Below are positions 1,076 through 22,181 of a stretch of DNA of 22,894 nt, one piece after another. Origin of the DNA: a virus. The stretch spans positions 1-22,894 of IMG/VR virus record IMGVR_UViG_3300035698_009132; one strand, written 5' to 3'. Both the position numbers and the translations under genes were made by a program. Below the pieces are notes generated by a model that saw only the letters and a list, made by a program, of their open reading frames with translations, was not told where the DNA came from and did no database searches. The first letter of the stretch is position 1. Every line of letters begins with the position of its first letter.

Positions 1076-1651
1076 ATGAAAAGATTTATGACAATTCTGT
1101 TCGCCGTTCTGTTGATCGGCATGTTGTCCGGAGATGCGTTTGCGAGCAAGATGTTCTCTTGGGGACAAGACAAGGCTAACAACGAGTATGTGGCTACTAC
1201 CGGTTTGTTGGCTGGAACTGCCGCCGTTGATTCGCTTACTGCTTTTACGATAAGTGGTGGCGATATTTACATCACTGGCTTATCAATGTTTCTGAATACT
1301 GCACCAGGTGCAAACACAGAACTTGCAAATTTTTTAATTGAAACTGGAGGATCTGCTGGCGATACGGCAAAGGTGCGCTTAGGATTAGCTAAAGATCTAA
1401 ACGGTGTTGCTATCGGCACAACGCAGTACCTGAATCCATTAACTGCTATACTAACAGACTCGCTGGCATACTACGGATCTGAGGCCGCTGGTATTAGTCC
1501 TATCGCCGAGGTTGTTAAGTGGAGAATACGGGTTAGGGAGAGTACGGTCATAAGACTGCTTCTCCCCGGTGATCAACTAACAGCTATGACTGCAATACTT
1601 CATTGGTCAAAGGTTGATCCGACTTCTTCAGCAATAGTGACGGCTGAGTAA
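1076..1651 (+). CDS. Secreted virion-associated protein candidate with signal peptide
   Basis: Encodes 191 residues with a strong ribosome binding site: AAGGAG (1065-1070) overlaps the previous stop codon and sits 5 bases from the ATG. Residues 1-23 form a textbook signal peptide: MKR, a hydrophobic core (ILFAVLLIGML), then SGDAFA with predicted cleavage after Ala23 (AFA|S). The mature part is beta-prone and Gly/Ala/Thr-rich without cysteines or a known domain. It ends with a strand VIRLLLPGD, a short turn and a strand AILHW, similar to the ends of neighbouring signal-peptide proteins. Its cleavage region LSGDAFA is identical in sequence to that of the protein at 21576, though most codons differ. 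A phage protein made for the Sec pathway in a late operon is unusual; it may be an envelope protein rather than a virion part. Function unknown. Confidence 0.75.
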   Translation: MKRFMTILFAVLLIGMLSGDAFASKMFSWGQDKANNEYVATTGLLAGTAAVDSLTAFTISGGDIYITGLSMFLNTAPGANTELANFLIETGGSAGDTAKVRLGLAKDLNGVAIGTTQYLNPLTAILTDSLAYYGSEAAGISPIAEVVKWRIRVRESTVIRLLLPGDQLTAMTAILHWSKVDPTSSAIVTAE

Positions 1652-1658
1652 GAATAGG

Positions 1659-1684
1659 ATGGGTAGGGTTTTGGCTCTACCCAT
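1659..1684 (+). promoter_or_regulatory. Intercistronic hairpin that may present the ribosome binding site of the next gene
   Basis: ATGGGTAG (1659-1666) pairs perfectly with CTACCCAT (1677-1684). One wobble and one G-C pair extend this to 10 bp around a 6-base loop (TTTTGG). No U-tract follows, so it is a poor terminator. The 15 bases before the ATG at 1692 have no Shine-Dalgarno match. However, AGGA at 1656-1659 lies at the foot of the stem, and folding the hairpin would bring it to about 7-8 bases from that ATG. A folded ribosome binding site of this kind has been described for phage T4 gene 38. Confidence 0.55.
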
Positions 1685-1691
1685 TTAACTC

Positions 1692-3050
1692 ATGAAAAAA
1701 TACATACTTGTAATAGTCCTTGCTCTCTTTTTGTGCGGTGGTGTGTTTGCGTCAAGCATTCTCACTATCGCACAACAGGAAATACTCACCGCTATTGAAG
1801 GCGGTGCGTCATGTTCTGAGGCAATTGAGGACACGCTCAACGTCATATATGACGCTCTTAGCCATGTGCCAAAGTTCGGTGGAACTATCTGGTTTGTGAG
1901 TGAAGGCGGGAGTGATGATAGTTCTGGTCGTGATCCACATCAAGCATTTCTGACTATCGGTAACGCTCTTGATAGCACTGTATCTGGCGATGCTGTATCT
2001 GTTATGGCTGGAACTTACACTGGGGTTGGGCTTGTTCTTGGCGAAGCTGGAGTTAAAGACAACCTTGAAATGTGGTGTGAGATCGGTACTATCATATCCC
2101 CTGCAAGTGGTATCGCTTTAACCATAGCAGGTAATTACTGTAAGTTGATTGGTGAAGTGTCGATATTCCCAACTGGTGCAGCCGGTCTTTTGGTTAGCGG
2201 TGCAAACTGTGTTATATCTGAAGTCAAATCACTCGCCGCTGGGGTTGGAACAGACTGCTATCATATCACAGGTGCCGGGGTAGTAATGACTCGGTGTGTT
2301 GGCGGTTTCCCAACTGCAACGTATGCTGGATTTAATATATCTGGCGCACAAGGAAGATTTTATGAATGCTCTGTTGTAGGCAATACAACATCTTACGGTT
2401 ATCATATTCAGGGTGGAGTTGATACAGGTGTTATATCTAACGCTACATCAACCGGGCACGCTTCAGGCGGGTATTACATTGATGCCAATTCTACTGACTG
2501 GACAATCCTTGATTGCTCTTCTGGTGGCGGCGATGGTAAATGGGTAGATGTTGACCATGCTAATATATGGAGTGGGTTTACATATCCAGAGACAAAATAT
2601 AAATCCATTACACTTGACAATAGTCATGCCTACAATCTGTTTGAGATTACTGGCGGCGTTGAAATTATTGAGATATCTGGAACTGTTACGACTACACTGG
2701 AGGGGGCAAATACGGATGTATCTTTTCAGCTTTATGGGAGTACCGGACCAAATACAGACATAATAACCAAAGCCACTGATGCTGACATGGGAACCGCAGC
2801 TGTCGGTTCTATCGTTATAAAAACAGAAGATCCCGGTAAAAAAGTAACGTTCCTGTCTGCTGGCGTACCGTCAGTTGACAAAGGTACAGACCCGAAAAAG
2901 AAAAAGGCAACATTGGTGGCTGCGCTCACTGGTACTACGCATATTAGATGGGTATGCGCTGGTAATAACGATACTTCAGGAGCCATAGACTTCCATGTTG
3001 AATGGCGACCGATGAACGATGATGGATTTTTAGAGCCGTACACTCCGTAA
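1692..3050 (+). CDS. Right-handed beta-helix (pectate-lyase-like) protein with signal peptide; tailspike candidate
   Basis: Encodes 452 residues. Residues 1-20 are a signal peptide (MKKY, core ILVIVLALFL, cleavage VFA|S after Ala20). Residues 65-110 contain the entry motif of DUF1565/pectate-lyase-fold proteins: a strand IWFVSEGGSDDSSGRDP, then an AFLTIGNAL helix and the sequence VSVMAGTYTG. Residues about 110-290 are short repeated turns typical of a beta-helix (for example NCVISEVKSL, GRFYECSVVG, DWTILDCSSGG). The remaining residues form a separate beta-sandwich-like domain ending IRWVCAGNND and FHVEWRP. In phages such folds usually bind or degrade surface polysaccharide, so a tailspike or depolymerase is the leading guess; I see no assignable catalytic residues. 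The signal peptide is unexpected for a tailspike and leaves open a secreted enzyme. Its stop overlaps the terminase start by one base (TAATG). Confidence 0.8.
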   Translation: MKKYILVIVLALFLCGGVFASSILTIAQQEILTAIEGGASCSEAIEDTLNVIYDALSHVPKFGGTIWFVSEGGSDDSSGRDPHQAFLTIGNALDSTVSGDAVSVMAGTYTGVGLVLGEAGVKDNLEMWCEIGTIISPASGIALTIAGNYCKLIGEVSIFPTGAAGLLVSGANCVISEVKSLAAGVGTDCYHITGAGVVMTRCVGGFPTATYAGFNISGAQGRFYECSVVGNTTSYGYHIQGGVDTGVISNATSTGHASGGYYIDANSTDWTILDCSSGGGDGKWVDVDHANIWSGFTYPETKYKSITLDNSHAYNLFEITGGVEIIEISGTVTTTLEGANTDVSFQLYGSTGPNTDIITKATDADMGTAAVGSIVIKTEDPGKKVTFLSAGVPSVDKGTDPKKKKATLVAALTGTTHIRWVCAGNNDTSGAIDFHVEWRPMNDDGFLEPYTP

Positions 3051-4855
3051 TGAACAAGCGAGATTTATCCCTACTTACGGAGCAGTTGGCGTGGGCTAAG
3101 GACTTTAATAATTTCCCTGAGTACTGCAAGAGGTACATGAAGATCCAGACGAAAGAGCATGGACTTCAGCCGTTGATCCTTAACCCTCCGCAGATGAAAT
3201 TATTTAACAAGATATTGTATAATATCAAGAACGGTTTACCGCTTTATTTCATAATACTAAAAGCGAGGCAGATGGGCTTTTCGACGGTGATCGAAGCGAT
3301 CATCACTTGGCTGACGATGTACAACGCTGACTGGAGATCTGCAATCATAGCGCATGGTTCGACCCCGGCGAGCAACTTGTACAATATGTTCAAGATTTAT
3401 CACAAGTATATTCCGGATGACATAAAGTCAGCATTGTTGAGTTCTGGCAACGAGAAGGTGTTGAAGTTCAAGGATACAAGATCGTCTGTGAACATCTTCA
3501 CCGCGGAGAACCCGCAAGCAACATCGTCTGGAACGTTCCAATCGGTGCATATATCTGAACTGTCAAAGTGGCGTGATCAACGAACCGCAATGGTATCGTT
3601 GGAACAGACCATACCGCGTAATGCTTTTGTAGCGATTGAGTCAACAGCATTTGGAGTTGGTAACGAGTTCCATAAAAAATGGGTATCGGCTGAAGCTGGA
3701 AATAGTGATTACACCCCGTTGTTCTTCCCCTGGTATGAACATCAGGAGTACTTTGTTCCACTAAATGAAGGTGAGGTGATCGAACCGGATTTCGAGGAAA
3801 GATATTACTATGAAAAGTACAAACTTACTGACGAACAACTGAAATGGATGCGATGGTTTAGGGTTAATAAATGTAATGGTGAATGGAGTGTGTTCAAGCA
3901 GGAATACCCGGCAGATCCTGAAGAGGCGTTTATCTCGTCCGGTAGTCCAGTATTTGACATGCGAGTATTACAACGTAGAGAGCTTGAGATCGAGAAGAGT
4001 GAAGAGCCGATTATGCGTGGCGAATTTATCGTCAAAGAAGAAGAAGGTGGCAAGTACAAAGTAAACTGGTTGCCGAATGAAAGTCTGAATGACAACAACT
4101 TTGTAGAGATTTACGGTGCGCTTCCAGATCAGTATGATAAATGGAAGTATAGATATACGATTGGCGTTGATGTTTGCGAGGGTATTGATAGACAGGCAAC
4201 GGGTTCACCATCGAAAGACAAGAAGAGTTCTGGCGATACAGACTTCAATGCGATAAGTGTTTGGGACAAGATCAAGGGTAAGCAGGTTTTATTTGCCAGG
4301 AACAAATTTGACACGTATAGACTTGCAGAGCAGATCTTTGGTATAATGGTTTATTTTGGTGGCAATACAGACAAGACATCTTACCCGCTGACAGTGATTG
4401 AGCGTAACAATTCCGGACTTGCGGCGATAAGGTTCCTGATTGATTTGTATCTTCGAAAGTACGGGGTGCCGCTTGAGAGGTTATACCACACTGGAAAGTT
4501 CGACACGAATTACGAACCGACAGGTGATCAGTTAGGGTTCAGGACGAGTCAGCAGACTAAGCCGTTATTGATAAGTGAAATGCAACAGAGATTGATAAAT
4601 GGTACTGACGGGATACAGAGCAAACGTGTGATCAGGGAAGCAAAGACGTATGAGCGCAACGCAGCGGGTCAGATGAATGCTGTTCAGGGTCAATGGGACG
4701 ACGCTGTTATCGCACAGTGTCTGAGTTATGAAGGTGTAAGGAGAGATCATTTGCCAATGGAGTTGGTAGATAAAAAAAAGTTGACCGGATGGAGAAAGCG
4801 AGTGTTTGGCAACAAGTCTAAAAATGTGGGGTACTGGAGCAGTGGCGTTAAATAG
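3050..4855 (+). CDS. terL: Terminase large subunit (packaging ATPase and nuclease)
   Basis: Encodes 601 residues, a usual length for the family. The protein docks on the portal, pumps DNA into the prohead with ATP and cuts the concatemer. The ATPase half shows an adenine-binding-type LNPPQMKLF (44-52), Walker A KARQMGFST (71-79), Walker B region SVHISE (165-170, Glu170 the likely catalytic carboxylate) and a coupling motif IESTAFGVGN (196-205). A family hallmark QEYPADPEEAF (284-294) joins the halves. The RNase H-like nuclease half has Asp374 (IGVDVCEG), Glu451 (VIERNNSG) and Asp550/551 (QWDDAVIA). No Shine-Dalgarno precedes the ATG, which overlaps the previous stop as TAATG, so translation is probably coupled. 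No small-terminase candidate is recognised in this window. Confidence 0.96.
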   Translation: MNKRDLSLLTEQLAWAKDFNNFPEYCKRYMKIQTKEHGLQPLILNPPQMKLFNKILYNIKNGLPLYFIILKARQMGFSTVIEAIITWLTMYNADWRSAIIAHGSTPASNLYNMFKIYHKYIPDDIKSALLSSGNEKVLKFKDTRSSVNIFTAENPQATSSGTFQSVHISELSKWRDQRTAMVSLEQTIPRNAFVAIESTAFGVGNEFHKKWVSAEAGNSDYTPLFFPWYEHQEYFVPLNEGEVIEPDFEERYYYEKYKLTDEQLKWMRWFRVNKCNGEWSVFKQEYPADPEEAFISSGSPVFDMRVLQRRELEIEKSEEPIMRGEFIVKEEEGGKYKVNWLPNESLNDNNFVEIYGALPDQYDKWKYRYTIGVDVCEGIDRQATGSPSKDKKSSGDTDFNAISVWDKIKGKQVLFARNKFDTYRLAEQIFGIMVYFGGNTDKTSYPLTVIERNNSGLAAIRFLIDLYLRKYGVPLERLYHTGKFDTNYEPTGDQLGFRTSQQTKPLLISEMQQRLINGTDGIQSKRVIREAKTYERNAAGQMNAVQGQWDDAVIAQCLSYEGVRRDHLPMELVDKKKLTGWRKRVFGNKSKNVGYWSSGVK

Positions 4856-6659
4856 TAAAGAAAATAACGAGATTGTTGATGAAGTAATCCATACCCACTC
4901 TTACTATGTCCAAGAGTACCAAACTCGCCTTGATATGATTCGCAAGAACAATAGCATGGTAAACGGTGATCAGTGGGATGCGAAAAAGAAGGCTAAACTC
5001 AACAAACAAGGTCGTCCAACGTTAAGTTTGAACATTGAGTTGCCGTTAGTGCTACAACTCATTGGTACAATGACAAGCAATAAACGTTCGATCAAAATTA
5101 TACCCGTTGACAACACTGCTGATGACCAGATAGCCACTATCCTAACCAAGCTTTTATTGCATATAGACAACAGAAGTATCAATGATGTTGAGTATCTTGA
5201 TGAACAGCAATTCTCCGCTGGCGTGATCGGCAGTTCAGGCTGGCAATTTATAGACGTCGAATATGAAGAAGATCCACTTGGAGAGATAAGGGTTTATTCC
5301 GAGAAGAATACCGACATACTTGTTGATCCAGACGCTGTAACGATTGACCAAAAGGACTGGAAGAAGGTCATACGGCGTAGATGGATGTCTTGGAGTGCTA
5401 TACGGTTTGAGTGGAATAATGTTGTCAAGGAGAAGAGTCCAGGCTATTTCAAGAGAATATGGGAAGCGACAATCGAAAGACTCAAACCTGATCTGCGCGA
5501 CAAAGGCATAGATGATCTTGTGACACAGAACAACAATATGTTCAGGGTGATAGAGCAGTGGGAACGTAAGAAAGAGCGCGTCGTGAGTATTCAGAACCCT
5601 GCTGATGGTGAGATCATGCAGGTTAAGCCAGGCAAGATAGCTGATGAACTTATTGAGAAACATGGTTGGGGATTGATACATCAGGGCATTCGGTATTATC
5701 TGGATGTCAAAACTGTTCTGCCGTTCACTAATCAGGTACTTGAAAGAAAGCGTTACAATTATTATTACTATCCGTTTGCTGGTTATTTCCCATTGAAGTT
5801 TAGCGGATTGCCGCTTATTGATGGTATATCCTATGTTGAGAACCTTCACGGAGCGCAGGAAGAAAAGAATAACATGCGATCCGTTATGCAGGACACACTT
5901 CAGCGAACTCCTGTTGGCGGAGCAATCTTGCCACCTGGTGAAGATGCGTTACTTGAAGAAATGCGAGTGCATGGATCTGAGCCTGGATTTTTTGGTATTC
6001 GAGAAGGCACAAACGGTATAATTGAATGGTTAAAACAGAATTTTCCTACTGGCTGGCATCATTTGTCATTGTCTAACGATGTTGACATTCAAAGAATATC
6101 GGCAATGCCATTGGCACAACAGGGCATATCTGAAAGTTCAAGCGAGTCTGGTACGCTGTTTAACTCAAAGGTTGCACAGGGTTTGACTTCGATGGGCATG
6201 ATGTTCTCTAATTTCAAACGTGCGAGAAAGCTTGCTGCAAATATTAAGATAGAGCGGATACAAAAGACCTATACGCAAGAGCGGATATACAGAATAATTG
6301 GCGAAGAGAACAGTGAGGTTGTACCGGTCAATGTTCAGTACGGAGCCGGACAAATACTTAACGACGTGTCTGTTGGGAAGTACGACGCTATCGTTGATGA
6401 AGTTGAACACATCAATAATTACAGCGAGGGTGAACTCAAGGCATTGGCTGAAGTAGCGAAGGGCGTTCTGCCGTTGTTACCGCCGAGTATTGCGATAGAG
6501 TACCTTGCTGAAATGATAAATAATACCACGCTTGAGAACAAGAAGCGTTTCAGGGATATGTTGTTAGGGGCTGCAAAGCAGATGGAAGGACAACCGGCCG
6601 GTGGAGCGCAACAAGGTCAAGGTGGAACAAATAACACAGAACAAACGCAACTTCAGTGA
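4824..6659 (+). CDS. Portal protein, P22 gp1-like
   Basis: Encodes about 611 residues from the ATG at 4824, overlapping the terminase end by 32 bases. The same frame has a TTG at 4806 with a distant GGAG (4791-4794, 11 bases), so the start is uncertain. The N-terminal motif with NGDQWD and GRPTLSLN, followed by an MTSNKRSIKIIPVD segment and a helix-rich wing, matches the P22-type portal family, in which 12 subunits form the DNA channel at one capsid vertex. A repeat of acidic and aromatic residues follows (FIDVEYEEDPLGEI, DILVDPDAV), also usual for that family. The last 30 residues are Gly/Gln-rich and probably disordered. Placement directly after the terminase and before the scaffold agrees. 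Confidence 0.93.
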   Translation: MWGTGAVALNSKENNEIVDEVIHTHSYYVQEYQTRLDMIRKNNSMVNGDQWDAKKKAKLNKQGRPTLSLNIELPLVLQLIGTMTSNKRSIKIIPVDNTADDQIATILTKLLLHIDNRSINDVEYLDEQQFSAGVIGSSGWQFIDVEYEEDPLGEIRVYSEKNTDILVDPDAVTIDQKDWKKVIRRRWMSWSAIRFEWNNVVKEKSPGYFKRIWEATIERLKPDLRDKGIDDLVTQNNNMFRVIEQWERKKERVVSIQNPADGEIMQVKPGKIADELIEKHGWGLIHQGIRYYLDVKTVLPFTNQVLERKRYNYYYYPFAGYFPLKFSGLPLIDGISYVENLHGAQEEKNNMRSVMQDTLQRTPVGGAILPPGEDALLEEMRVHGSEPGFFGIREGTNGIIEWLKQNFPTGWHHLSLSNDVDIQRISAMPLAQQGISESSSESGTLFNSKVAQGLTSMGMMFSNFKRARKLAANIKIERIQKTYTQERIYRIIGEENSEVVPVNVQYGAGQILNDVSVGKYDAIVDEVEHINNYSEGELKALAEVAKGVLPLLPPSIAIEYLAEMINNTTLENKKRFRDMLLGAAKQMEGQPAGGAQQGQGGTNNTEQTQLQ

Positions 6660-6662
6660 GTA

Positions 6663-7666: not shown

Positions 7667-8938
7667 TTGTCGTTTGATTTTACACGACTAAACGAACTCA
7701 CTCCTCAGGCTATTGCGAAACTCGCAAGAGCTGAGACGTGGTTCAACTCACCATGGGCACCATATATTTCGACCATCGAGAACTCGGTGGAACGAAAAAT
7801 GGCTGGCATGGGAGATTTAGAACCCACTGGCGCACCTATCACGCGCTACACGGAGTTCGCCAAAGAGGGAACAGACACCCTTTATGTCCCACAGTACGGC
7901 AGATTGTATGGCGAAGGTATCTACGGAGATAATGACCTTGCAGGGACAGAAGAAGATCTCGAAGTTTACAGAGCGCAGGTGATAATTAACGCTATCGCCC
8001 ATGCCGTGAACGTAAAGAAGGGTCCGATGAACGCATTGCGCTCGTCAGGGATTGATGGCAACACAGGCGAGATGGGTCAGATGATGCAGGGTAAGCCGGC
8101 ATTGTCAGGATGGTTCAGCGATAAACTGTCATGGGAAGTCTCACAGGCTTTCTATCGCGGTTACAATCCTGCTGTACTTGCCGCTGCCGCTGATGGCGGT
8201 CCAGCAATATCCCAACGCAACCACCCGCACTTCTGGGTTGCAGATCACGGCTTTGTCACATGGAGTGCAACACATGCTACATATAATGCCAGCATCGAGG
8301 ATGCGCTTCAGACAATGGAAGGCGGAGCAACCGTCGAACGAGCGATGACAGCCGAGTTGCTTGAGGCTTTGAAACCTGCGCTGATCAAAAAGCGTATTGC
8401 CCCGGCGTTGATTAAGGATGGTAAAAAGTTCTGGTTCTTGTTTGTGCATCCGGACGTTATGGCACAGGCTCGCCAAGACGACAAGATTATGACTTCAACT
8501 CAGAGCGCATTCCGCTCCGGACAGTTGAAAGATCCGATGTTGACTGGCGTTGAATTGTTCTACAACGGCTTTGCGCTGAAAGAGAATTTGATCGCCGCTC
8601 CGGAAATCCACGAGGATGGATCTGACAATATTCTGTATGGTCCGACCAATGCTGCCGAGGATACGCTGCTTAACCCGCTCCTGTATGTTGAATCGACTGA
8701 TGAAATTGACAGGAATTTGAAGGCGAGTTTGATACTCGGATCTAATGCTCTTTCCATTGGCGAATTGTCAAATGGTGAGATGGTAGTCGAAGACAGCGGA
8801 ACGTACAAGCGTAAAGCTTCCGTTGGTATGACGACTATCTTTGGCGCAGCTCGCAATGACTCTTACGATGTCATTGACGGTGCAACAGCAGTCAAGAACT
8901 TCGGTTCAATGGTTGTTGTAACAAACTCACCTGAATAG
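7667..8938 (+). CDS. Major capsid protein, N4-gp56/DUF4043-like
   Basis: Encodes 423 residues from a TTG codon. AAGGAG (7653-7658) is 8 bases upstream, no in-frame ATG occurs before codon 46, and the sequence from residue 1 is coherent, so the TTG start is well supported. The stretch around residues 78-113 (YGRLYGEGIYGDNDLAGTEE, then LEVYRAQVIINAIAHAV) matches the conserved core of N4-gp56/DUF4043 capsid proteins, where a GD..L.G.EE motif is followed by a V.I...RHAV-like strand. Further on, the WFSDKLSWEVSQAF helix (about 147-160) also fits. The protein builds the icosahedral shell. It sits directly after the scaffold, 29 bases apart. A TTG start for what should be the most abundant phage protein is noteworthy. 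Confidence 0.9.
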   Translation: MSFDFTRLNELTPQAIAKLARAETWFNSPWAPYISTIENSVERKMAGMGDLEPTGAPITRYTEFAKEGTDTLYVPQYGRLYGEGIYGDNDLAGTEEDLEVYRAQVIINAIAHAVNVKKGPMNALRSSGIDGNTGEMGQMMQGKPALSGWFSDKLSWEVSQAFYRGYNPAVLAAAADGGPAISQRNHPHFWVADHGFVTWSATHATYNASIEDALQTMEGGATVERAMTAELLEALKPALIKKRIAPALIKDGKKFWFLFVHPDVMAQARQDDKIMTSTQSAFRSGQLKDPMLTGVELFYNGFALKENLIAAPEIHEDGSDNILYGPTNAAEDTLLNPLLYVESTDEIDRNLKASLILGSNALSIGELSNGEMVVEDSGTYKRKASVGMTTIFGAARNDSYDVIDGATAVKNFGSMVVVTNSPE

Positions 8939-9285: not shown

Positions 9286-9699
9286 ATGGCTGATATGATA
9301 GCAATCGAACGGAACGTTAGTGACGTTTACTCGCGCAAACAGGTTCACAGATTTGGAACAAAAGGGCGCAAAGGGAAAGTGTACAAATGGCCTGAACACG
9401 CCCCATCGGTACTCAGTGTTCCAGTTGAATTTGGAGAACACCTCGCCAAAACGATGCCTGATAAATTCAGTGTATCTGACAAAATAGCGCCGAGCATCAA
9501 CGCCACAGGTAAGAATACCGTACCTGGGTTGGTTGCGGATGGCGATACTGCCATTGACCTTGCTTCATGTTCGAGCGATGATATGGTTGTTGAGTTACGC
9601 AAGCGAGGCTGGCGTGGAATGCGCCCCCCGAAGCCAAAAGAAGAACCCAAAGAGACGGTTAAGGTTTCTGACACAGAACCCAAAGACGACGCTGAATAA
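9286..9699 (+). CDS. Head-region protein of unknown function with charged C-terminal tail
   Basis: Encodes 137 residues with a GAGG site (9276-9279) 6 bases before the ATG. I do not recognise the family. The N-terminal part is basic and probably beta-rich (KGRKGKVYKWPEHA near 26-39). Residues about 93-108 (SSDDMVVELRKRGWRGMR) form a short helix-extension element resembling HeH/LEM or SAP-type motifs found at the ends of some phage head proteins, but the match is weak. The last 28 residues are Lys, Glu, Pro and Asp-rich and probably disordered. It lies between the decoration candidate and the adaptors, so a capsid accessory or connector role is likely. Its stop overlaps the next start (TAATG). 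Confidence 0.7.
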   Translation: MADMIAIERNVSDVYSRKQVHRFGTKGRKGKVYKWPEHAPSVLSVPVEFGEHLAKTMPDKFSVSDKIAPSINATGKNTVPGLVADGDTAIDLASCSSDDMVVELRKRGWRGMRPPKPKEEPKETVKVSDTEPKDDAE

Positions 9700-10388
9700 T
9701 GGCGACACTTCTTCAGTTACGCACAAGATTGCGGTATCGGCTTGATGATGTCGATACCGCTAATCCGCGGATAGTTGACGCTAACTACAACACCTGGATC
9801 AATAGCGCATTGAAGCGGATAGCGCGAGAGGCGTTATGTTTCAAGGATACTGACACAATCACCGGTGACGGATCTACAGGCTATACCTTGATCGGAACTC
9901 TCGCAACAAACCTTGCATCTGACTATTATCTCATGCACGGTGTCGATGTTGATTATAGCGCAATTATAGCATGGACTGGAACTACACACAAGATATTACG
10001 CCAAGTTGACATTGAGCGGATACGCGAAGAGGTTGTGGCTGTATCTGGTACTTTACCTGCCGATGAACTTCCAACCATGTATGCGCTGTACGGGAATACA
10101 ATTTATCTCAATGCACAGATTGTGGCTGGAGCTATAATTCATGGCAGATACTTTGGAACTCCCGTAGCATTGACTGTTGACGGTACTTCACCAGAAGCCC
10201 CGCTTGACACATGGGACTCGTTAGTTGTTGCGGCGGCAAGACTTGAACACACAGTTGATGAAGAAGGTGGTAATCTTGACTCTTCGGTTGTTGTGGGCGC
10301 GACAAAAGAATATCAAACTGAGTTGAAAAAGTTCCTTCAATTCTTCCCGAACGAGAGTTACGGCACCGCAAGGCAGGAGAGAGGCTAA
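9699..10388 (+). CDS. Head-tail adaptor protein, copy 1
   Basis: Encodes 229 residues. The N-terminal helix LRTRLRYRLDD followed by NTWINSALKRIA (31-42) is the usual opening of phage adaptor (gp6/gp11-type) proteins that form a ring below the portal. A DGSTGYTLIG strand and NLASDYY (71-77) follow. The C-terminal third is a helical region with ARLEHTVDEEGG and a terminal helix (TELKKFLQFF). The whole length aligns by eye with the next gene: TWIN...KRIA, T.DG, (L/V)IG, N.ASD, an IY.N strand, and the helix (V/L)..AARLE or AAMLE. No good Shine-Dalgarno is present; the start overlaps the previous stop as TAATG. Confidence 0.78.
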   Translation: MATLLQLRTRLRYRLDDVDTANPRIVDANYNTWINSALKRIAREALCFKDTDTITGDGSTGYTLIGTLATNLASDYYLMHGVDVDYSAIIAWTGTTHKILRQVDIERIREEVVAVSGTLPADELPTMYALYGNTIYLNAQIVAGAIIHGRYFGTPVALTVDGTSPEAPLDTWDSLVVAAARLEHTVDEEGGNLDSSVVVGATKEYQTELKKFLQFFPNESYGTARQERG

Positions 10389-11709: not shown

Positions 11710-14700
11710 CGAACAACACAGGATAGGTGGTGAAGGATTTGGAACTATCAACAGAGACGTATCTACTGTCGATAAGCCTTTCAGCGTTGCCGATGTAGCC
11801 AGAAACGTCAAGATAGATAAACAGGGTAAGTTGACGTGGAGAGAGTCAATGGCTGAAGTCTATGAAGACCGCCCGAACTGGTTTGACTATACGACACCTT
11901 TGACCGCTGCGAAAGAGCGGTACATCGACGAGTCGCGGGCAGATACACAGAACAACTCAGGGATATACAATACCCATGCCCGTAAGGCAGTAGCGTATCT
12001 GCTTCATGACAGCACTAAGTATGTATTTGTTGCCAATGTAATATACAGCGATGGAAGTGGTGACTTTGTAAAGCTATATATTTACCATGGAAAAGCTGGT
12101 AGTGATGGTGAAATAGACTGGGATGATCCATCAATACAAAAAGCTACTGATGATTTAGTTTTATTAGATCCCATAACCACCTTTCAATATCTTGGTGATG
12201 ATACCGGAATATCTAATCAGGAATGGATTGACTTCAGTATGGTTGCGGATGCAGATAACGATAAACTGTATCTTGCTGTTATGTTACGTGATGATAGAAA
12301 CGCAGCAACCGGACACAATCGGGCAATACTGAGAGTAATTGAAGTTGGCAGTTTATACACAGATGATTTCACTGGTGATGCAACATGGGCATTACTCGAC
12401 GAAGTTGCTGGATGGACAGGTCAAGTAGTTGCTGATAATGCAGACAATGATGCTTTTACGCACGATGTTGATATATGCTTGGTTGAAGATACCAGCTCCC
12501 CGGTAAGTCCAAGCATACTATACCTGCATGTCATTTGGGGATTTTACGAGGAGGGTGAAAATCCGTCTTACTATCTGAAACATAGACGACACAAGATAAG
12601 CACCGCTACGTGGACGGAAGAGACGGTCATATCGCTTGCTGATGCACATTTAACAGCGGCAACTATCCAAGCCGATGCAACATTAGAAGTTGTGGTCATG
12701 GTTTACACCTATGAAGACAATGGAACCGGCGATGGTGATTCGCTCAAGATGCTAGTTTGGGATGCTGATGGTGCTCCGGGTGCAGAAGCTACAGCAGAAA
12801 TAATAGCGTCTGGTGGGCAAGCTCCTCACATGGAGTCCGTTATATACGCAACAGCGTTCAGTGGTGCAACGTTTTCGATAGACGAGAATGAAGATTTAGC
12901 CGTAAGCGTTAAGCGTTACCACATATTGTATAGAACTGAAGCGGCAGTACTTAAATATGTTGCTGCGATATATGCTCCTACCGGAATAACTGTTGGCACT
13001 CCAATTGCAATAGGCACCGCAATCGCAGACGGGATAACTCTTGTAACTCCGCAACGTCTCAACTGTTTCGATATCAGCGCAAGAGACGGCGTTGCATGTA
13101 TTTACGTTGTGCTTGATGGAACTGAAGATATTATCAATCTATACACAGTAGCCGATGCAGCGTCCTCTGCAACAGACGAGGGTCGTGTCCATGTTGGATT
13201 TGACTTTGAAGTGTTCCTGAATACAGACAAGATTTATAACATCTACTGTGCAAGGCGATTAAACTTCATTGACCTCGAATTGCATAACGTAGAAGAAGAC
13301 CCAACAAATTATTACACTTTCCATTTGATGTATTTACGGCAAGAGAAAGATACCGAAGAGGACGAGGTCGTGATAGAGGCTATCCATCATTACCGGATGC
13401 CTGAACTTGACGAAACAACGATTAAGACTCACATAGTTCAATGTGATGATAGTCGATACTATAAGCGGAATACGGATCTTTGGCACTGGATGTTGCTTGA
13501 GAATACGATGGACCCGCTCAACTCCGACGAGTCATGGTGGAAAAGATTAGCAGCGTCCGTTGCTAATGGTGGATTTGGCTTGACTGAGGCTCCAGATCCC
13601 AACCCCCGGACGTTCTTTATTGATCACAAGAAGGTTGTGATGGGTGGGGCGGGTAATGCTGATACTGAAGTTGGCATGAATTACAAGTTGATTGACCGAT
13701 ACTTCTTTACCAATGACGCTGCGAACCGTTATCAAGGCATGTTCATCGACGTGTTTCCGGTATTGCAACCACCTAATTCTGACAACCTGCAAACCAAGGC
13801 TTTTACGTTTTTATCAGCCAGCCAAACGCTTGGCAATGTTCTTGATTTTATAGTACCTGCGGACTTGGTGAGACTACCCGCAAGAGAGTACAGACCTTTT
13901 ATGCTTAACGAATTACGGAATGACATTAACGGGGTTGTTCCAGATATAGATTACGTGGCGCAATTTAGGGGTTTGTCAAGAATAGTGGTGGATAGAATGC
14001 CGATAAAGCCGTTCTTTTGCGCCTTGTCGTTTGTTTATGATGGTGCAGAAGAGAGTTCGTTGTACCATATACCTGAAGCCTATGTAGATGCCTTTGATGA
14101 CCTTGATGGTGATGGCAGTCTTGTTGGGAGTAATATTCCACCAACATCTGCATGGGTAGGTGCAGTGCCCAATAACATCGGTGGTGGTAGTTGGAAAGAT
14201 TACACAAAACCATATTTAGCCGTTCAATTGCAAATCCAAAAATGGGACAGCATAGATGTTGATAAATGCAATAAGCGCGTAACGGCAATCAGGATATGGA
14301 TGTCAGAGGTTCTTGATTATAGTCAAGTACCAGAGAAGAGTGCATTTCATCCTGTCAAAACAGTGTTGGTATCTAAGAACAAGGTGTTTAAGGACGAGCT
14401 TTGGAATGGTGATGACGAGTGGACATGGGATGATCCATATTACAAGATCACAGTTCCGATTGATATAGATGATTTTCTTGGCAGTTTAAGCTCCGCAACA
14501 TATTCACAGATAAACGACCACCCGTATGTTGACTTCTTGTACGAAGCCGACAAAGGACTTGAGCTTAGTATGGCAGTGGAAGCGTTCAAGACAGTAGAGA
14601 TTGCGGCTAACATACCTATACTTGGCAATGTGAGGATTAACGGCGTTGATCACCCGAACTGGATTATTAAACCAGCAACCCGTAGCGAGCTTGGATCTGC

Positions 14701-15604
14701 AAATATTACGCCGGATGTTTATCCGGAGAAGAATCATGTATCGTTCCCATTCTCGGTGCAATCGATTAAGAAGATTGATGACAACACGATTGTTGTAGTT
14801 GGCGATAACGGTTTGGCAGTTGTCGATGTATCAGCAATGTCGGTGCGTGAAATAATGTTGCCAGATGTTGGGACAGAACATGGAATGTCTGCTACACGGA
14901 TATTCATGGGTAAGCCACATATTGCATTCCTGTCAAGTGATGACAAGAACGGTAATTACATTTGGATATTTGATGGGTTTAATATTGGTGAAGAGATAAG
15001 CATCCCGATCTATAACGACTCTATTGACGGTACATATAAGGGCTTAGGTGGATTGACAACACTTGATGACGCTTGGGGATTTGCGCTTCATAGGCATGGT
15101 TACTTTATGATGTTCTTCCCGACAGAGGGAATTGTGTTCGTCTATGATACTCGGCGCAAAGGTTGGTATGATTGGACGTTTGACGAAACGTTTGTTGCCG
15201 GATGCGTTGGAGTTGACGGCGAATTGTTTATCACTGATGGCGCAAAGGTTTATGACTTCCCCAATCCGTCTTCAGGGCTTGAACCTATATGGCGATCAGG
15301 TGGGAATAAATGGAGTGCTGAACACGACTTGAGTTTCTTGCGGATGTTCACATCTTACAAATGCGCTGGATCTGGCATCGATGTCAAGTTGATTGCTGAC
15401 AAAGGGACGGTTCCGATAGCGACTCCATACCTTCAGAACTTAGCGGCAAGTGCTTCAGAGACAGAGAATACTCGTAAGATTGCAACAGGCACGAAAGCAA
15501 CACGTGAAGTCCAGGTGCAGATTGAGATCGTCACTCCAGCAAATGCGACAACATTTGAATTGGATAGACTTGAAATTCAGGGTGCGTTGAGGAAAAGACG
15601 ATGA
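11699..15604 (+). CDS. Very large tail nozzle/stabilisation-like protein
   Basis: Encodes 1301 residues from the ATG at 11699, preceded by AGGGGATTGGG (GGGG 11684-11687); the frame is open 26 codons further upstream, but that part overlaps the previous gene. The protein is dominated by beta-propeller-like repeats: strands ending in Trp/Tyr-Asp turns, for example KLYIYHGKAG, DDKLYLAVML, PSILYLHVIWGF, ICARR-type turns, and near the C-terminus FVYDTRRKGWYDWTFDE with GELFITDGAKVYDF. A motif with VVGDNGLAVVDVSA lies near 1035. T7 gp12-type nozzle proteins have this kind of fold and follow the adaptor in gene order, but are much shorter (roughly 800 residues), so this one has a long N-terminal or inserted part. 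The assignment rests on order, size and composition. Confidence 0.7.
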   Translation: MADNEQHRIGGEGFGTINRDVSTVDKPFSVADVARNVKIDKQGKLTWRESMAEVYEDRPNWFDYTTPLTAAKERYIDESRADTQNNSGIYNTHARKAVAYLLHDSTKYVFVANVIYSDGSGDFVKLYIYHGKAGSDGEIDWDDPSIQKATDDLVLLDPITTFQYLGDDTGISNQEWIDFSMVADADNDKLYLAVMLRDDRNAATGHNRAILRVIEVGSLYTDDFTGDATWALLDEVAGWTGQVVADNADNDAFTHDVDICLVEDTSSPVSPSILYLHVIWGFYEEGENPSYYLKHRRHKISTATWTEETVISLADAHLTAATIQADATLEVVVMVYTYEDNGTGDGDSLKMLVWDADGAPGAEATAEIIASGGQAPHMESVIYATAFSGATFSIDENEDLAVSVKRYHILYRTEAAVLKYVAAIYAPTGITVGTPIAIGTAIADGITLVTPQRLNCFDISARDGVACIYVVLDGTEDIINLYTVADAASSATDEGRVHVGFDFEVFLNTDKIYNIYCARRLNFIDLELHNVEEDPTNYYTFHLMYLRQEKDTEEDEVVIEAIHHYRMPELDETTIKTHIVQCDDSRYYKRNTDLWHWMLLENTMDPLNSDESWWKRLAASVANGGFGLTEAPDPNPRTFFIDHKKVVMGGAGNADTEVGMNYKLIDRYFFTNDAANRYQGMFIDVFPVLQPPNSDNLQTKAFTFLSASQTLGNVLDFIVPADLVRLPAREYRPFMLNELRNDINGVVPDIDYVAQFRGLSRIVVDRMPIKPFFCALSFVYDGAEESSLYHIPEAYVDAFDDLDGDGSLVGSNIPPTSAWVGAVPNNIGGGSWKDYTKPYLAVQLQIQKWDSIDVDKCNKRVTAIRIWMSEVLDYSQVPEKSAFHPVKTVLVSKNKVFKDELWNGDDEWTWDDPYYKITVPIDIDDFLGSLSSATYSQINDHPYVDFLYEADKGLELSMAVEAFKTVEIAANIPILGNVRINGVDHPNWIIKPATRSELGSANITPDVYPEKNHVSFPFSVQSIKKIDDNTIVVVGDNGLAVVDVSAMSVREIMLPDVGTEHGMSATRIFMGKPHIAFLSSDDKNGNYIWIFDGFNIGEEISIPIYNDSIDGTYKGLGGLTTLDDAWGFALHRHGYFMMFFPTEGIVFVYDTRRKGWYDWTFDETFVAGCVGVDGELFITDGAKVYDFPNPSSGLEPIWRSGGNKWSAEHDLSFLRMFTSYKCAGSGIDVKLIADKGTVPIATPYLQNLAASASETENTRKIATGTKATREVQVQIEIVTPANATTFELDRLEIQGALRKRR

Positions 15605-15789: not shown

Positions 15790-15790
15790 C

Positions 15791-16327
15791 ATGGGGTTTC
15801 CATTAGCGTTGATACCATTAGCAATACAAGGGGCAACAGCATTAGTAAGTTATTTGGGACGTGACAAGAACAAAACATCAAACATATCCGGTGTTCAGGC
15901 TCCGACATTCAACGCAAGCGGGATGCGTTCAGCGGCGTTGTCGAACATTGGCGAACAGTCTGCACGGGCGGGACGTTCTGCAAATATGGCGCTCAATGCA
16001 CAGGGATTGGGTAACACAGGGCTTGGCACGGCGGTTGGTCGTGGTATAGCAAGTGACGCTTCACAGCAAGCACAGAGATCGTTTGCCAACATTAACCAGA
16101 TGCAAAACCAGTTCCAACAGAACCTTGCTAACTTTAATTTGCAGAAGGCATCGTTGCAGGATCAATGGAAGGCGCAGCAACCGAACTTCATGAGTGATTT
16201 AGCTCTTGGTGCAAACGTGGCGGGTGCGTTAACTCCGTTGATGAACCCACAGCAATTTGTGCCACAGTATAATATCAATGGTGGTCAAGGACAGGGTGGC
16301 GTACAGTTTGCACCGGGGCCAATTTAA
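15791..16327 (+). CDS. Small internal (ejection) virion protein, T7 gp14-like
   Basis: Encodes 178 residues with an excellent site (GGGAGG, 6 bases before the ATG). The N-terminus (MGFPLALIPLAIQGATALV) is a hydrophobic membrane-seeking segment. It is followed by a basic turn and a long Ala/Gln/Asn-rich helical region (residues about 45-130), then a second hydrophobic helix (MSDLALGANVAGALTPLM, 131-150) and a Gly/Gln-rich tail. Size, composition and position before two larger proteins match the first member of the T7-type internal core (gp14 is about 196 residues), which is injected and inserts in the outer membrane of the host. Sequence identity with T7 gp14 cannot be claimed. The stop overlaps the next start (TAATG). 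Confidence 0.68.
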   Translation: MGFPLALIPLAIQGATALVSYLGRDKNKTSNISGVQAPTFNASGMRSAALSNIGEQSARAGRSANMALNAQGLGNTGLGTAVGRGIASDASQQAQRSFANINQMQNQFQQNLANFNLQKASLQDQWKAQQPNFMSDLALGANVAGALTPLMNPQQFVPQYNINGGQGQGGVQFAPGPI

Positions 16328-17193: not shown

Positions 17194-17201
17194 GTACAAT
17201 A

Positions 17202-20200
17202 ATGGCACCCTTATCAGTTGATGACATACGTTCTGGAATGGCAGGTACGCCAAAGAAGCAAGCAACTCCCAACGGCGGCGGATTTAGCGTTGACGCTATC
17301 AGGTCTGCTATGTCTGGAAAGACGGCACAACCTGCACAACCTTCAGCCTTTGAACAGGTTAAGGAGGTTGGACAACAGCTTGGTCAAGCGATAGGTGCGG
17401 TTCCAGGCTTTTTTAAGAACGTATTGCCACAACAGGACGACCCGTTGTTTGCTGAATTGCGCAACATAACACAACAGACAGTTCAACCATTGTTCGGCGG
17501 TGCTGAAATCATACCTAACGCTGCGATTGACCTTGCAAGATTGACCGCTGGAGTTCCTGAATTTGCGGCTAACGTTGTCGGTAGTCCAATCGAAACAGCT
17601 AAAGGTGTAGCGCAGGACATGATTAAATCCGGTGCGCTTATCAGTCGAATGATGAAACTTGACAATGACGCTTGGCTTGAGTTTAATCAAAGACCATTGA
17701 CAATACTGGCACCCTTTTTGATTGCTAAAGGTATCGCTTCGAGAGTGGGCGGTAAAATAGTTCCTAACCCGAAAGCACCGCCAGAAGCATTTGCAGAGAT
17801 AGCAAGCGAAGTTAAATTGTTAGAGGCTGGCAAACCGTCACCATTATTATTAGAAGCTGGCAAGCAGGAGGCGTTGCCGCTTAATAGAAGATTGCCGCAG
17901 ACCGCAGAGTCGCTGCCACAGTTCAAGGCACCTGAAAGTATTACGCCTGAACTTCTTGATGTTAAGGCACCGGTGCGCACTCCTGAACCATTAGGTGTTA
18001 TCGAAGGTAGGACTATCTTTCAACCAGGTGAACCAAGTAGTCGCTTAAACGTACCCGGTGAGCCTTCAGGCATAGGTCTATTAGATCAAGGCACTAACCC
18101 TTTCACTGTGCAGTCGGTTGCAGAGACGGCAAGGTTTGATTCATTTACACAGCCCAAGCAACAGGCTCCGGGTATTACATTACGCCCAAGTGAACTCAGC
18201 CCTGCTCCAGCAACAGGAGGGGCGTTAAGGTTCCAAAGTCCATTTGAAGAGGCACCGCCGCTACGCAGTGAGGGAAGACCAATTTCACCAAGACCATCTG
18301 GACAGTCTGGCAAGTGGTACGACCGGGCGTTTGATGATCAGGGATTTGTGAGAATACCCAAAGTTGACAAGGTGCGTGAATTTGTGGCGGGGCTTAATCC
18401 CGCGTATCTTGATCTAACAGCCGATGCAGCAAAGGCATTAGATTTCCAAGCGCAGGGCGTTAGTCGTGTTGTAAAACCGTGGAGCACGATAGAGCAAAAG
18501 GCTAAAGAGCTCAACATGAGTCCTGAAAGAGTCAAGCAGTTGTATGATAAAAACAAAGGTTTGACAACCGAGGAGTTATATGCTGCCCGTGAATTAGAGC
18601 AGGGAATGCTCAAGTCGATCACTGATAAATACGAGAATAGGTCAAGTGACCCTGCGACAATAAGTCCGCAAGACATTGCCGAACTTCAGACCACATTGTT
18701 AAATGCGAAGGCAACATTAGTTGATCCGATAACTAAGACAGCATCCGAAACTGCTCGTAAACTTAACTCGCTAAAGATGATCCCAAATAAGACCAAGTTT
18801 ATCGAGAAGGTAATTCAGAAGCGTGACGGCAAGCCAATGACACCACTTGAAGCTGGACAACTTATCGATGTTATCAAGATGACAGACATGAAAGATCCTA
18901 ACGCTCTCAAGTCTATGCGTAGGTTTCTTAAAGATATGGACAAACCCCGCTTTTGGGATTATGTAAACGAGTACTGGATTAATAATATCTTGTCTGGTTT
19001 GTCAACTAATGTAGTAAACACAACAGCAAACACTATTAAGTCTGTGTACAAACAAGGCGTTCAGCGTCCATTAGCTACGGCTTTTGACGTTCCACTTTCC
19101 AAGTTACAAGGTCGAGCAAGAGAGAAGTTGTTCTCAGAGATACAGCCAGCCGTCGAGGGATCATGGGCAGGTTTGAAATCCGGTGCGATCAAGGCGATTG
19201 ATATACTCAGAACAGGTCACACTAAAATTGGCGGTGAGACAAAATGGATGGCAGAGATCCCTGGACGTGGTGCATTCGAAAGATCACCTAATAAGGCATT
19301 ACGAGCGGCTAACCCATTCTTGACAATGCCCACAAGATTTCTGAGTGCAAGCGATGTTGCGTTCAAATCGGTTGCGTTTGAGGCCGAGACAGGTGCCTTG
19401 TCAAGGCGCATGGCGGCTAAAGAAGGACTGAAGGGTACAGAAGCAACAAAGCGTGCTGCCGAGATAAACGAAAATCCACCGCAAGCGATTATAGAATTAG
19501 CGGCAAAGGCTGCCGAAGAAGCAACCTTTATGGAAAACCCTGGCACGTTTGCCAACATGATACTCAAGCTTCGCGACTTTGAACCATTTCCCAACAAGGC
19601 TGGCGGGTTCAAACCATTACTATTTATTGCTCCATTTGTTAGAACAATATCAAACCTTATCAGACAAGGAGCGCAATTAACTCCCGGACTTGGGATTGCC
19701 GTTGACGCGGCAATGGGAACTAAGGGCGCAGGATGGGCTGATACCGCAGCAAGACAAACAACTGGCGCGATCATAACAACTTATTTTGCACAGAAATATG
19801 CAGAGGGTGAGATGGTTGGCGCGTCACCGCGTAACCCAACCGATAGAGCGGAATTCTTTGCACAGGGGAAACAACCATTTTCGATAAAGATCAGCAACAA
19901 ATGGATACAGTACAAGCGATTTGAACCGTTCAGTTTTCCAATGATAGCAGTGGCAAATGTTGGTGATGCTTATAGAGACTTTGGATCTGACAACCTTGAA
20001 GCAATGGTGACCAATGCTTTTTTTAGGACAATCAACGGGATAACGGACGCTTCATATCTGGCAGGGTTCTCTGACTTACTCAAGGGTATTGAGTATTCGA
20101 CTGACAGGAAAGATGAAAGCAATCCGTACATGGAGAACTTCTTCTCTCGTATTGCTGGTGGATATGTACCGGGGTCATCATTCTTGAGATCTGTTACAAG

Positions 20201-20690
20201 AGCGACAGAGGCAGTAACGGAAGGCGAGGTAAGACTACGCAAGTCAGAGGGCGTTGTAGATCGAGTTAAGGCTGGTATCCCGGGACTCAACACAGATATT
20301 AAATCAAAGTTCGATGTGTTTGGTGAACCGATAAAATTGCCGGGTGGTCCGGTCAGGCAAATATCACCGTTCAAATTCAGTGAAGAAACGACAGATCCTG
20401 TAACCATCGAACTTGGCAATGTTGGTTATTATCCCGGTATGCCAGGAAAGGCAGCATTCAAGAAAAAAATGATAAGTGCAAACTCGTCATTGACAGATAA
20501 AGAACTGAACGGTTATTACGATATGTTTGTGGTCTTTGCTGGCAGAGACTCTAAAGAACGGCTACGGGTACTGATGCGTAAAGACACTTACAAGAGCGCA
20601 AACGACGAAGCCAAGATAGGATTCATCGTAGAAAACATTAAGTCGGCCCGTAATAAGGCTCGCAATAAGATAAGGGGATTAGTTAAGTGA
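17202..20690 (+). CDS. Large internal (ejection) virion protein with LPD38-like C-terminal region
   Basis: Encodes 1162 residues; ribosome binding site weak (TAGG). The N-terminus has two copies of an 11-residue motif, SVDDIRSGMAG (5-15) and SVDAIRSAMSG (28-38), followed by a Pro/Ala-rich disordered stretch with hydrophobic helices (FLIAKGIASRVG near 172). Residues about 220-380 are Pro-rich and low complexity. From about 395 on the chain is helical and matches large phage internal proteins: NEYWINNILSGLSTNVVNT near 590, PLLFIAPFVRTISNLI near 805 and the LPD38-type segment PFSIKISNKWIQYKRFEPF near 890. The size matches T7 gp16 (about 1300), the transglycosylase-bearing ejection protein, but I see no transglycosylase active site. 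It probably enters the cell with the DNA. The C-terminus is basic. Confidence 0.72.
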   Translation: MAPLSVDDIRSGMAGTPKKQATPNGGGFSVDAIRSAMSGKTAQPAQPSAFEQVKEVGQQLGQAIGAVPGFFKNVLPQQDDPLFAELRNITQQTVQPLFGGAEIIPNAAIDLARLTAGVPEFAANVVGSPIETAKGVAQDMIKSGALISRMMKLDNDAWLEFNQRPLTILAPFLIAKGIASRVGGKIVPNPKAPPEAFAEIASEVKLLEAGKPSPLLLEAGKQEALPLNRRLPQTAESLPQFKAPESITPELLDVKAPVRTPEPLGVIEGRTIFQPGEPSSRLNVPGEPSGIGLLDQGTNPFTVQSVAETARFDSFTQPKQQAPGITLRPSELSPAPATGGALRFQSPFEEAPPLRSEGRPISPRPSGQSGKWYDRAFDDQGFVRIPKVDKVREFVAGLNPAYLDLTADAAKALDFQAQGVSRVVKPWSTIEQKAKELNMSPERVKQLYDKNKGLTTEELYAARELEQGMLKSITDKYENRSSDPATISPQDIAELQTTLLNAKATLVDPITKTASETARKLNSLKMIPNKTKFIEKVIQKRDGKPMTPLEAGQLIDVIKMTDMKDPNALKSMRRFLKDMDKPRFWDYVNEYWINNILSGLSTNVVNTTANTIKSVYKQGVQRPLATAFDVPLSKLQGRAREKLFSEIQPAVEGSWAGLKSGAIKAIDILRTGHTKIGGETKWMAEIPGRGAFERSPNKALRAANPFLTMPTRFLSASDVAFKSVAFEAETGALSRRMAAKEGLKGTEATKRAAEINENPPQAIIELAAKAAEEATFMENPGTFANMILKLRDFEPFPNKAGGFKPLLFIAPFVRTISNLIRQGAQLTPGLGIAVDAAMGTKGAGWADTAARQTTGAIITTYFAQKYAEGEMVGASPRNPTDRAEFFAQGKQPFSIKISNKWIQYKRFEPFSFPMIAVANVGDAYRDFGSDNLEAMVTNAFFRTINGITDASYLAGFSDLLKGIEYSTDRKDESNPYMENFFSRIAGGYVPGSSFLRSVTRATEAVTEGEVRLRKSEGVVDRVKAGIPGLNTDIKSKFDVFGEPIKLPGGPVRQISPFKFSEETTDPVTIELGNVGYYPGMPGKAAFKKKMISANSSLTDKELNGYYDMFVVFAGRDSKERLRVLMRKDTYKSANDEAKIGFIVENIKSARNKARNKIRGLVK

Positions 20691-21586
20691 ACAAGTTACT
20701 TTCAATAGTTGGATTGGTATTTATCGCCTGTCTGTTTATGGGCGCAGATCATCCGTTTGGGATGCAACCGGGCAATAGAGCAATCCCGACCGATGTAAGC
20801 ACACAAGAATGTATCGGCGGCTCACATGCGCCAATGATATTCATGGGAGAAGATACGCTCTTTAATGATGCTGCCAACACCCTGAGTAAATCTACTCGGT
20901 GGATGCAGATGGGATGGGTTGACGGAGCGACAGACAGGAACAACAAGACTGTACAGATGTTCAATCCAGAAATATTCACAATGAAGATAAAACTGAAGTC
21001 TGCTGACGGTGGTGATGGGCAAGGCGCCGTAGATACCACGTCTTTCAATGGCGCATATTTTGAGGTTCTTAGGGATACAACCGAAGCGGATGTGATAACA
21101 CTAACCTTGACCGATGGTTCAGGGGTTGGTCATTTCACTATTGGGGAACTTGTGACAGGCGATGCTTCTGGCGCAACCGGATATGTTCAATCAGCTACAG
21201 CGGATGTTACAACTCCAACTAGCGATACCCTTGTTTATTTAAGCAATGTCACAGGTGTATTTGACACAGGCACTCCGGACGATTTGACCGGTGGCACGTC
21301 TGGATCAACAGGAGAGATAGCGGCTAAGAGCGCAATATGGGACAGGTCTGGCTGGAACGCTGATAGCTCGAACTTCTTCATCGGTGACTTTTACAATCAC
21401 GACAAATATGGCGATTGGAAGTTCCGGGTTCCACTTATATCAACCGTGCTTGCTGATACTTCACGATGGTATCATTACCCTATTCGTCTATTTGACGGAG
21501 GTTTATACATAAGATTTGTCTGGACAGGCGACGCTTCCATTGGCGATACCACATTTATCAAATGGGAATACGAAGTTGAGAACTAA
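20687..21586 (+). CDS. Signal-peptide virion surface protein candidate with SGAT-type repeats
   Basis: Encodes 299 residues from GTG, overlapping the previous stop as GTGA; AAGGGG (20672-20677) lies 9 bases upstream. Residues 1-20 look like a signal peptide (MNKLL, core SIVGLVFIACLF, MGA|D); a lipobox reading around Cys15 is poor. The middle contains two copies of a Gly-rich phage motif: GELVTGDASGATGYV (residues about 153-167) and DDLTGGTSGSTGEIA (about 199-213), connected by a strand VYLSNVTGVF. Such units occur in phage tail fibre or structural proteins. The C-terminal 30 residues (LYIRFVWTGD, turn, FIKWEYEV) resemble the ends of the proteins at 1076 and 1692. The position after the ejection genes suits a fibre or other surface protein; the secretion signal is again unexpected. 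Family unknown. Confidence 0.7.
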   Translation: MNKLLSIVGLVFIACLFMGADHPFGMQPGNRAIPTDVSTQECIGGSHAPMIFMGEDTLFNDAANTLSKSTRWMQMGWVDGATDRNNKTVQMFNPEIFTMKIKLKSADGGDGQGAVDTTSFNGAYFEVLRDTTEADVITLTLTDGSGVGHFTIGELVTGDASGATGYVQSATADVTTPTSDTLVYLSNVTGVFDTGTPDDLTGGTSGSTGEIAAKSAIWDRSGWNADSSNFFIGDFYNHDKYGDWKFRVPLISTVLADTSRWYHYPIRLFDGGLYIRFVWTGDASIGDTTFIKWEYEVEN

Positions 21587-22181
21587 AAGTTTGTTGCTAC
21601 TTCAAACATTAATCGCTATCTTACTACTAAGCGGAGACGCTTTCGCCTGGACTCCTGACGAGATCGGCGTTGAGGTCGCTGCACGTTCACCTAATCAGGG
21701 TGAGGTTACTGACTACCTGCTTGGATTGGACTGCGAAGCTGAATCTATAACTGGTCACGTCGAGTTTGAGCGGGAGAACGGCGAGCAATACGTCAACTAT
21801 AAAATCACTGGATCGAAAGATGTTGGCAATTGGGAGTACGAGTTCTCGACTCGTGCTTCTGAAGCTCGCGACATCAACACACAAAAGATCGCCTGTAAGC
21901 GACGTTTGGGATATATAGGGCTTGGCGTTGGTCTAACAGCCGAGTATTACAACACAGATAGGCTACACGGTGTCTGTGTGTATTCCATGCCATTGTATCG
22001 CTACGGCTCATTGAACTACATGACGAACTTCGGCGGTCTGGAGATTTGGGACGTTGACATTGAAATATCTGATACTGCACAAAGAGTCAGTCCTGCGATA
22101 ACAGGCAGGTTCTACCGACAGATTGGAAAGCCTGTTGATTGGGCTGTGAGTATTGGAATTAAGATTAAATTCACGGAGTAG
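21576..22181 (+). CDS. Phage-encoded outer-membrane beta-barrel-like protein
   Basis: Encodes 201 residues if started at the TTG at 21576, which has GGGA (21564-21567) 8 bases upstream and overlaps the previous gene by 11 bases; a longer frame from TTG 21516 would add a non-signal-like extension. Residues 1-24 form a classic signal peptide (MRTKS, core LLLLQTLIAILLL, SGDAFA|W). The mature chain alternates polar and hydrophobic residues in strands joined by turns (EYEFSTRASEA, YIGLGVGLTAEYY, AITGRFYRQIG) and ends VSIGIKIKFTE, close to the aromatic-terminated last strand of outer-membrane proteins. Two cysteine pairs could be oxidised. The role is inferred: by analogy with lambda Lom or receptor-masking proteins it may alter the host surface. 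It is followed directly by the deoxyribosyltransferase-like gene. Confidence 0.7.
   Translation: MRTKSLLLLQTLIAILLLSGDAFAWTPDEIGVEVAARSPNQGEVTDYLLGLDCEAESITGHVEFERENGEQYVNYKITGSKDVGNWEYEFSTRASEARDINTQKIACKRRLGYIGLGVGLTAEYYNTDRLHGVCVYSMPLYRYGSLNYMTNFGGLEIWDVDIEISDTAQRVSPAITGRFYRQIGKPVDWAVSIGIKIKFTE

Follow-up and report, generated by a model that had tools for sequence, protein, structure and literature searches.

Predicted Sec-type signal peptides on five proteins encoded in the virion operon of an uncultured P22/SU10-type podovirus

INTRODUCTION

The virion proteins of tailed phages are usually assumed to complete folding and assembly within the cytoplasm. Phage-encoded envelope proteins have been described in several systems: the late operon of phage lambda encodes Lom, an outer-membrane protein with strong expression during lytic growth (PMC9836094); T5 Llp, which attaches to FhuA on its periplasmic side, keeps phage from re-adsorbing (PMC9586334); and Nixviridae phages of Porphyromonas gingivalis encode several Sec-signal proteins of unknown function that have been proposed to modify the outer membrane (PMC10367356). 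In the podovirus SU10, the genes are ordered adaptor (gp11), long fibre (gp12), short fibre (gp16), and nozzle (gp17), and the published description mentions no signal peptide (PMC9509320). Here we analyze IMGVR_UViG_3300035698_009132, an IMG/VR virus record whose entire 22,894 bases we refer to as the window, and in which five genes of a virion operon open with predicted Sec-type signal peptides. The initial annotation of this DNA took virion proteins of tailed phages normally to have no signal peptide; to expect no such late proteins in tailed phages is too strong, given Lom, Llp, and the Porphyromonas phages.

RESULTS

Five N-termini have Sec-type anatomy. We designate the products SP1 (191 amino acids, 1076..1651), SP2 (452 amino acids, 1692..3050), SP3 (227 amino acids, 11026..11709), SP4 (299 amino acids, 20687..21586), and SP5 (201 amino acids, 21576..22181), all encoded on the plus strand. 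Each begins with a basic n-region, a hydrophobic core of 8 to 15 residues, and small residues at −3 and −1, SP4 being borderline, which bears out what had been read from these five genes initially. Cleavage is predicted between MKRFMTILFAVLLIGMLSGDAFA and S in SP1 (signal, 1076-1144; score, 14.6), between MKKYILVIVLALFLCGGVFA and S in SP2 (1692-1751; 15.0), between MRYLICILLLTGIAFG and A in SP3 (11026-11073; 12.4), between MNKLLSIVGLVFIACLFMGA and D in SP4 (20687-20746; 11.5), and between MRTKSLLLLQTLIAILLLSGDAFA and W in SP5 (21576-21647; 13.5); the next-best gene in the window scored 9.7. The predicted +1 residue is never Q, so the Bacteroidetes Q-rule does not apply. Transmembrane anchors were considered and disfavored, since the cores are short and are followed by small-residue sites.

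The score is a home-made, rule-based one that combines n-region charge, the hydrophobic core, and the −3/−1 residues. Among 14 E. coli signal peptides used for calibration, 13 scored 12.2 to 15.1 and PhoA was missed; SP1, SP2, and SP5 are thus as strong as the E. coli controls, and SP3 and SP4 lie at or just under their lower edge. The cut-off, 11.5, was not set blind: it was picked after the weakest of the five window genes had given 11.53.

Five of the 21 window genes pass this cut-off, or 5 of 16 when only genes of at least 140 amino acids are counted. Chance controls within the window rarely passed: not one of the 298 in-frame internal starts did so, and of 54 non-gene open reading frames (ORFs) a single one did. 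For an outside comparison we scored 4,639 genes from 301 loci that share a terminase, portal, or capsid protein with the window, of which 79 (1.7%) passed, including 31 of the 2,846 genes of at least 140 amino acids; many were short genes of the holin or spanin type or else antisense ORFs. The difference from the window gives Fisher P values of 2.7e-5 for all genes and 9e-7 for genes of at least 140 amino acids, which serve only as a guide because these loci cannot be treated as independent samples and are distantly related to the window. Coincidence, which the initial annotation had thought less likely, is unlikely by these counts (5/21 versus 79/4,639 and 0/298), and the search of related phages for the same signals that it had proposed found no locus among the 301 with more than three.

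One cluster in the comparison set deserves separate mention: proteins of 592 to 675 amino acids, encoded ∼5 kb after the capsid gene in five loci of distant relatives (L268, at 15050-16828, L266, L269, L231, and L296), have a weak signal-like N-terminus (MSNRLTKQGKVTFIAAIPAVVA); these are probably false positives of the score.

The SP1 and SP5 signals both end in LSGDAFA at the cleavage site, although six of the seven codons differ, all of them synonymously. This pattern fits either an old common origin with selection acting on the peptide or convergence. The mature parts of the SP proteins show no significant paralogy to one another; a common virion-type C-terminal domain in SP1 and SP2, suspected by eye, likewise had no significant paralogy behind it, and a motif search for it in the related loci found nothing.

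The SP genes sit among genuine virion genes of the late operon, as had been claimed: the operon also encodes portal, capsid, adaptor, and ejection proteins. They overlap adjoining genes at four junctions (SP2-terminase, 1 nucleotide; adaptor-SP3, 4 nucleotides; ejection protein-SP4, 4 nucleotides; SP4-SP5, 11 nucleotides), and their guanine-plus-cytosine (GC) content of 0.43 to 0.47 resembles that of the remaining window genes. Because their GC content is normal and their starts overlap upstream stops, they appear to be established members of the operon rather than recent cargo, and a recent moron insertion is disfavored on the same grounds. Taken together, the sequence evidence leads us to regard the five predicted signals inside a virion operon as real and unusual.

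The mature SP proteins. Judged by sequence comparison, the mature parts are mostly orphans; SP1 to SP4 had no tblastn match among 50,697 phage records. SP1 (mature length, 168 amino acids), whose gene has a good Shine-Dalgarno sequence, matched no family at a useful E value in PHROGs, Pfam, or NCBIfam; its sequence matches in PDB (RNA polymerase alpha, nanobodies) were judged to be due to chance. SP2 matched phrog_13163 (tail, baseplate wedge; a beta-helix profile) at E = 1.2e-5 over ∼49 residues, and Pfam Beta_helix at E = 0.099, which falls short of the cut-off; its mature part probably forms a right-handed beta-helix, after which comes a C-terminal domain that is an orphan. SP3 occupies a tail-fibre slot, between the adaptor and nozzle-like genes, as the SU10 fibre genes do, and no fibre or spike domain was recognized in either SP3 or SP1.

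SP4, read from a GTG start, has a candidate spike-type SGATG domain with a weak match to phrog_358 (E = 0.0023). This region of the profile also matches a spike-like protein without a signal, at its end; that protein is encoded at 19674-21548 of L145, a Rhodospirillaceae contig (E = 5e-4), and BLAST likewise pairs it with SP4. The SP4 domain alone, searched against phage records, found only cyanophage neck proteins at E values of ∼1 or worse. A weak FIAC motif in the SP4 signal is a possible lipobox, so SP4 could be a lipoprotein.

SP5 is read from a TTG at 21576 that overlaps the preceding stop, the same pattern as in neighboring genes; were translation to begin at 21516, in the same frame, the signal would lie buried within a longer protein. 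It has weak similarity to OmpF (NCBIfam, E = 0.0067; PDB, E = 0.54) and the highest strand-like alternation among the window proteins (z = 1.75), and did not match the Ail/Lom outer-membrane family in Pfam. On this sequence evidence SP5 is a possible small outer-membrane beta-barrel. A beta-rich composition, noted for four of the SP proteins in the initial annotation, is plausible.

The phage and its late operon. By its predicted gene content, the window derives from an uncultured, divergent, short-tailed podovirus of the P22/SU10 type: it encodes a P22-type portal, an SU10-type adaptor, and a matching capsid protein, and relatives of the portal were found. All recognized genes are on the plus strand, 3′ of a strong intrinsic terminator at 83..117 (plus strand; 15-bp stem and T-run; fold z = −5.6) that directly precedes the late operon. 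The terminase large subunit (3050..4855) belongs to PHROGs terminase families and had tblastn matches in 287 phage records. It is followed by the portal (4806..6659; PF16510, E = 1e-67), for which a TTG start is assumed, and by the major capsid protein of the Phage_capsid_3 family (7667..8938; phrog_334, E = 6e-21; PF13252, E = 2e-11), whose TTG start has a good Shine-Dalgarno sequence. TTG or GTG starts are apparently used by the major genes at 4806, 7667, 20687, and 21576.

Two SU10-type adaptors (9699..10388, PF24175, E = 2e-11; 10388..11029, PF24175, E = 9e-13) form a tandem duplication (9699-11029) of SU10_adaptor paralogues that are ∼30% identical. The large protein encoded at 11699..15604, with ATG 11699 as the preferred start, is assigned as nozzle- or hub-like by its position after the adaptors; its one match was a weak one of beta-propeller type (LVIVD, E = 0.14), and it had no tblastn match among the phage records. 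An internal virion (ejection) protein is encoded at 17202..20690 (phrog_6651, E = 1e-28).

Two strong RNA hairpins lie at 1657-1686, directly 5′ of the 1692 start (fold z = −4.2), and at 9242-9267, 3′ of a small gene at 8947 (z = −2.8); possibly they control expression around the capsid region. No RNA family was matched in the window.

Single-sequence scans of viral contigs with the portal and terminase found no close relatives. In alignment-based scans, terminase relatives reached at most 34% identity, portal relatives were mostly 25 to 30% identical, and capsid relatives mostly 20 to 30%; one portal-alignment scan and the adaptor scan returned no relatives.

DISCUSSION

We consider it fairly probable, judging from the sequence features above, that the SP proteins are produced alongside the virion proteins late in infection and are exported by Sec to the envelope, where they would mask the receptor or remodel the surface. 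In a host that we assume to be of Gram-negative type, the Sec translocase would deliver them to the periplasm, the outer membrane, or the outside, with signal peptidase I cleaving the signals (perhaps signal peptidase II in the case of SP4). SP5 may then form a small outer-membrane barrel, and SP2, SP3, and SP4 may be proteins of fibre or spike type with affinity for the cell surface. By analogy with T5 Llp and lambda Lom, their likeliest use would be late in infection, either in covering or blocking the receptor that the phage itself uses or in remodelling the surface; progeny would then not re-adsorb to the dying cell or to its debris, and rival phages would be kept out. The initial annotation had likewise proposed that the proteins act at the envelope, and this part of it finds partial backing in the weakly porin-barrel-like SP5 and in the resemblance of SP4 and SP2 to phage spike and tail modules.

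In favor of export we count three things read directly from sequence: the anatomy of the signals, their higher frequency than in related phages, and the placement of the genes in one operon with overlapping ends. The LSGDAFA shared by SP1 and SP5, the tail-, spike-, and porin-like similarities, and the precedents of Lom, Llp, and the Porphyromonas phages also speak for it. Several points weigh on the other side. The score cut-off coincides with the weakest of the five SP genes; the domain matches of the SP proteins are weak and were selected from several searches; and single-sequence AlphaFold models of SP5 and SP2 had a predicted local distance difference test (pLDDT) score of ∼35, with no readable fold. 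No whole-length homologues of the five proteins were found in which the signals could be compared. Known exclusion proteins, moreover, are described as early rather than late (PMC9586334).

The strongest rival involves no export: the SP proteins would be tail fibres, spikes, or decoration proteins of the ordinary kind, held on the adaptor or nozzle by hydrophobic N-termini that act as docking peptides or are cut by a phage protease. The position of SP3 matches that of the SU10 fibre genes, the short fibres of SU10 attach via hydrophobic residues near their N-terminus (PMC9509320), SP4 and SP2 show spike- or tail-like similarity, and signal-like N-termini of capsid proteins have elsewhere been ascribed to the prohead protease (PMC10367356). 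We nevertheless think this explanation unlikely: the n-h-c anatomy is complete, with an AxA-type site; two otherwise unrelated proteins have LSGDAFA where they would be cut; no such N-terminus is seen in the genes of related phages, the L145 spike that shares a domain with SP4 among them; and no protease was recognized in the window. A further possibility, to which we give about the same low probability, is an envelope-side assembly stage: fibre- or spike-type proteins would be exported by Sec to the outside of the host, either as soluble or membrane-held decoys or to be added to virions during or after lysis, alongside an outer-membrane barrel encoded by the phage.

Slightly less probable still is that the SP proteins are moron-like envelope cargo with no part in the lytic cycle, altering the host surface to a lysogen's advantage. 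The weak porin similarity of SP5 speaks for this; against it, the genes are not individually bracketed by terminators, their GC content is normal, their starts overlap upstream stops, the five are dispersed, and the window contains no lysogeny genes. That the SP proteins, once exported by Sec, serve lysis or the exit of virions, say with a barrel and a beta-helix depolymerase opening the outer layers, strikes us as improbable. Lom has been proposed to link to the holin (PMC9836094), and the gene 3′ of SP5 is deoxyribosyltransferase-like; next comes a small gene, at 22594, whose product has a C-terminal hydrophobic segment and could be lysis related; yet no endolysin, holin, or spanin family was recognized in the window, and no catalytic motif was found. 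Finally, chance hydrophobic N-termini or an assembly artefact might be suspected, since two of the five scores are near the cut-off and the window was chosen because a reader had noticed signals. The null results from internal starts and related loci, the three strong signals, and the continuous operon of uniform GC content make this very improbable.

If the SP proteins are indeed exported, about one-quarter of the late genes would be devoted to exported proteins, some of them like spike or fibre modules. That would point to sizeable phage activity on the envelope side, be it receptor masking, remodelling of the surface, or late decoration, lying under annotations as hypothetical structural proteins. 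Counting signal peptides in phage late genes of at least 140 amino acids would be a simple genome screen for such programmes.

Among known systems, the SU10-type (Kuravirus) and P22-type podoviruses share with this phage the P22-type portal, SU10-type adaptor, Phage_capsid_3 protein, and internal virion protein, but its portal is only ∼25 to 30% identical to the nearest found. Lambda Lom (Ail/Lom, PF06316) is similar in being an outer-membrane protein encoded within a late operon; there it is a single gene, whereas here there are five, and SP5 is weakly porin-like with no PF06316 match. T5 Llp and Cor are, like the predicted SP proteins, phage proteins exported to the envelope, where they block re-adsorption (PMC9586334), but they are small lipoproteins described as made early, in contrast to proteins of 191 to 452 amino acids encoded in a late operon; the weak FIAC is found in SP4 alone, which at 299 amino acids is not a small lipoprotein of the Llp/Cor kind. 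The Porphyromonas phages also encode several proteins with Sec signals, their function unassigned as here, yet they are siphoviruses with Bacteroidetes Q-rule signals, unlike this podovirus, with S, A, D, or W at +1. Exported proteins encoded by phages are thus already known; what would set this locus apart, if its SP proteins are exported, is their unusual number, their location in a virion operon, and their partly spike-like build.
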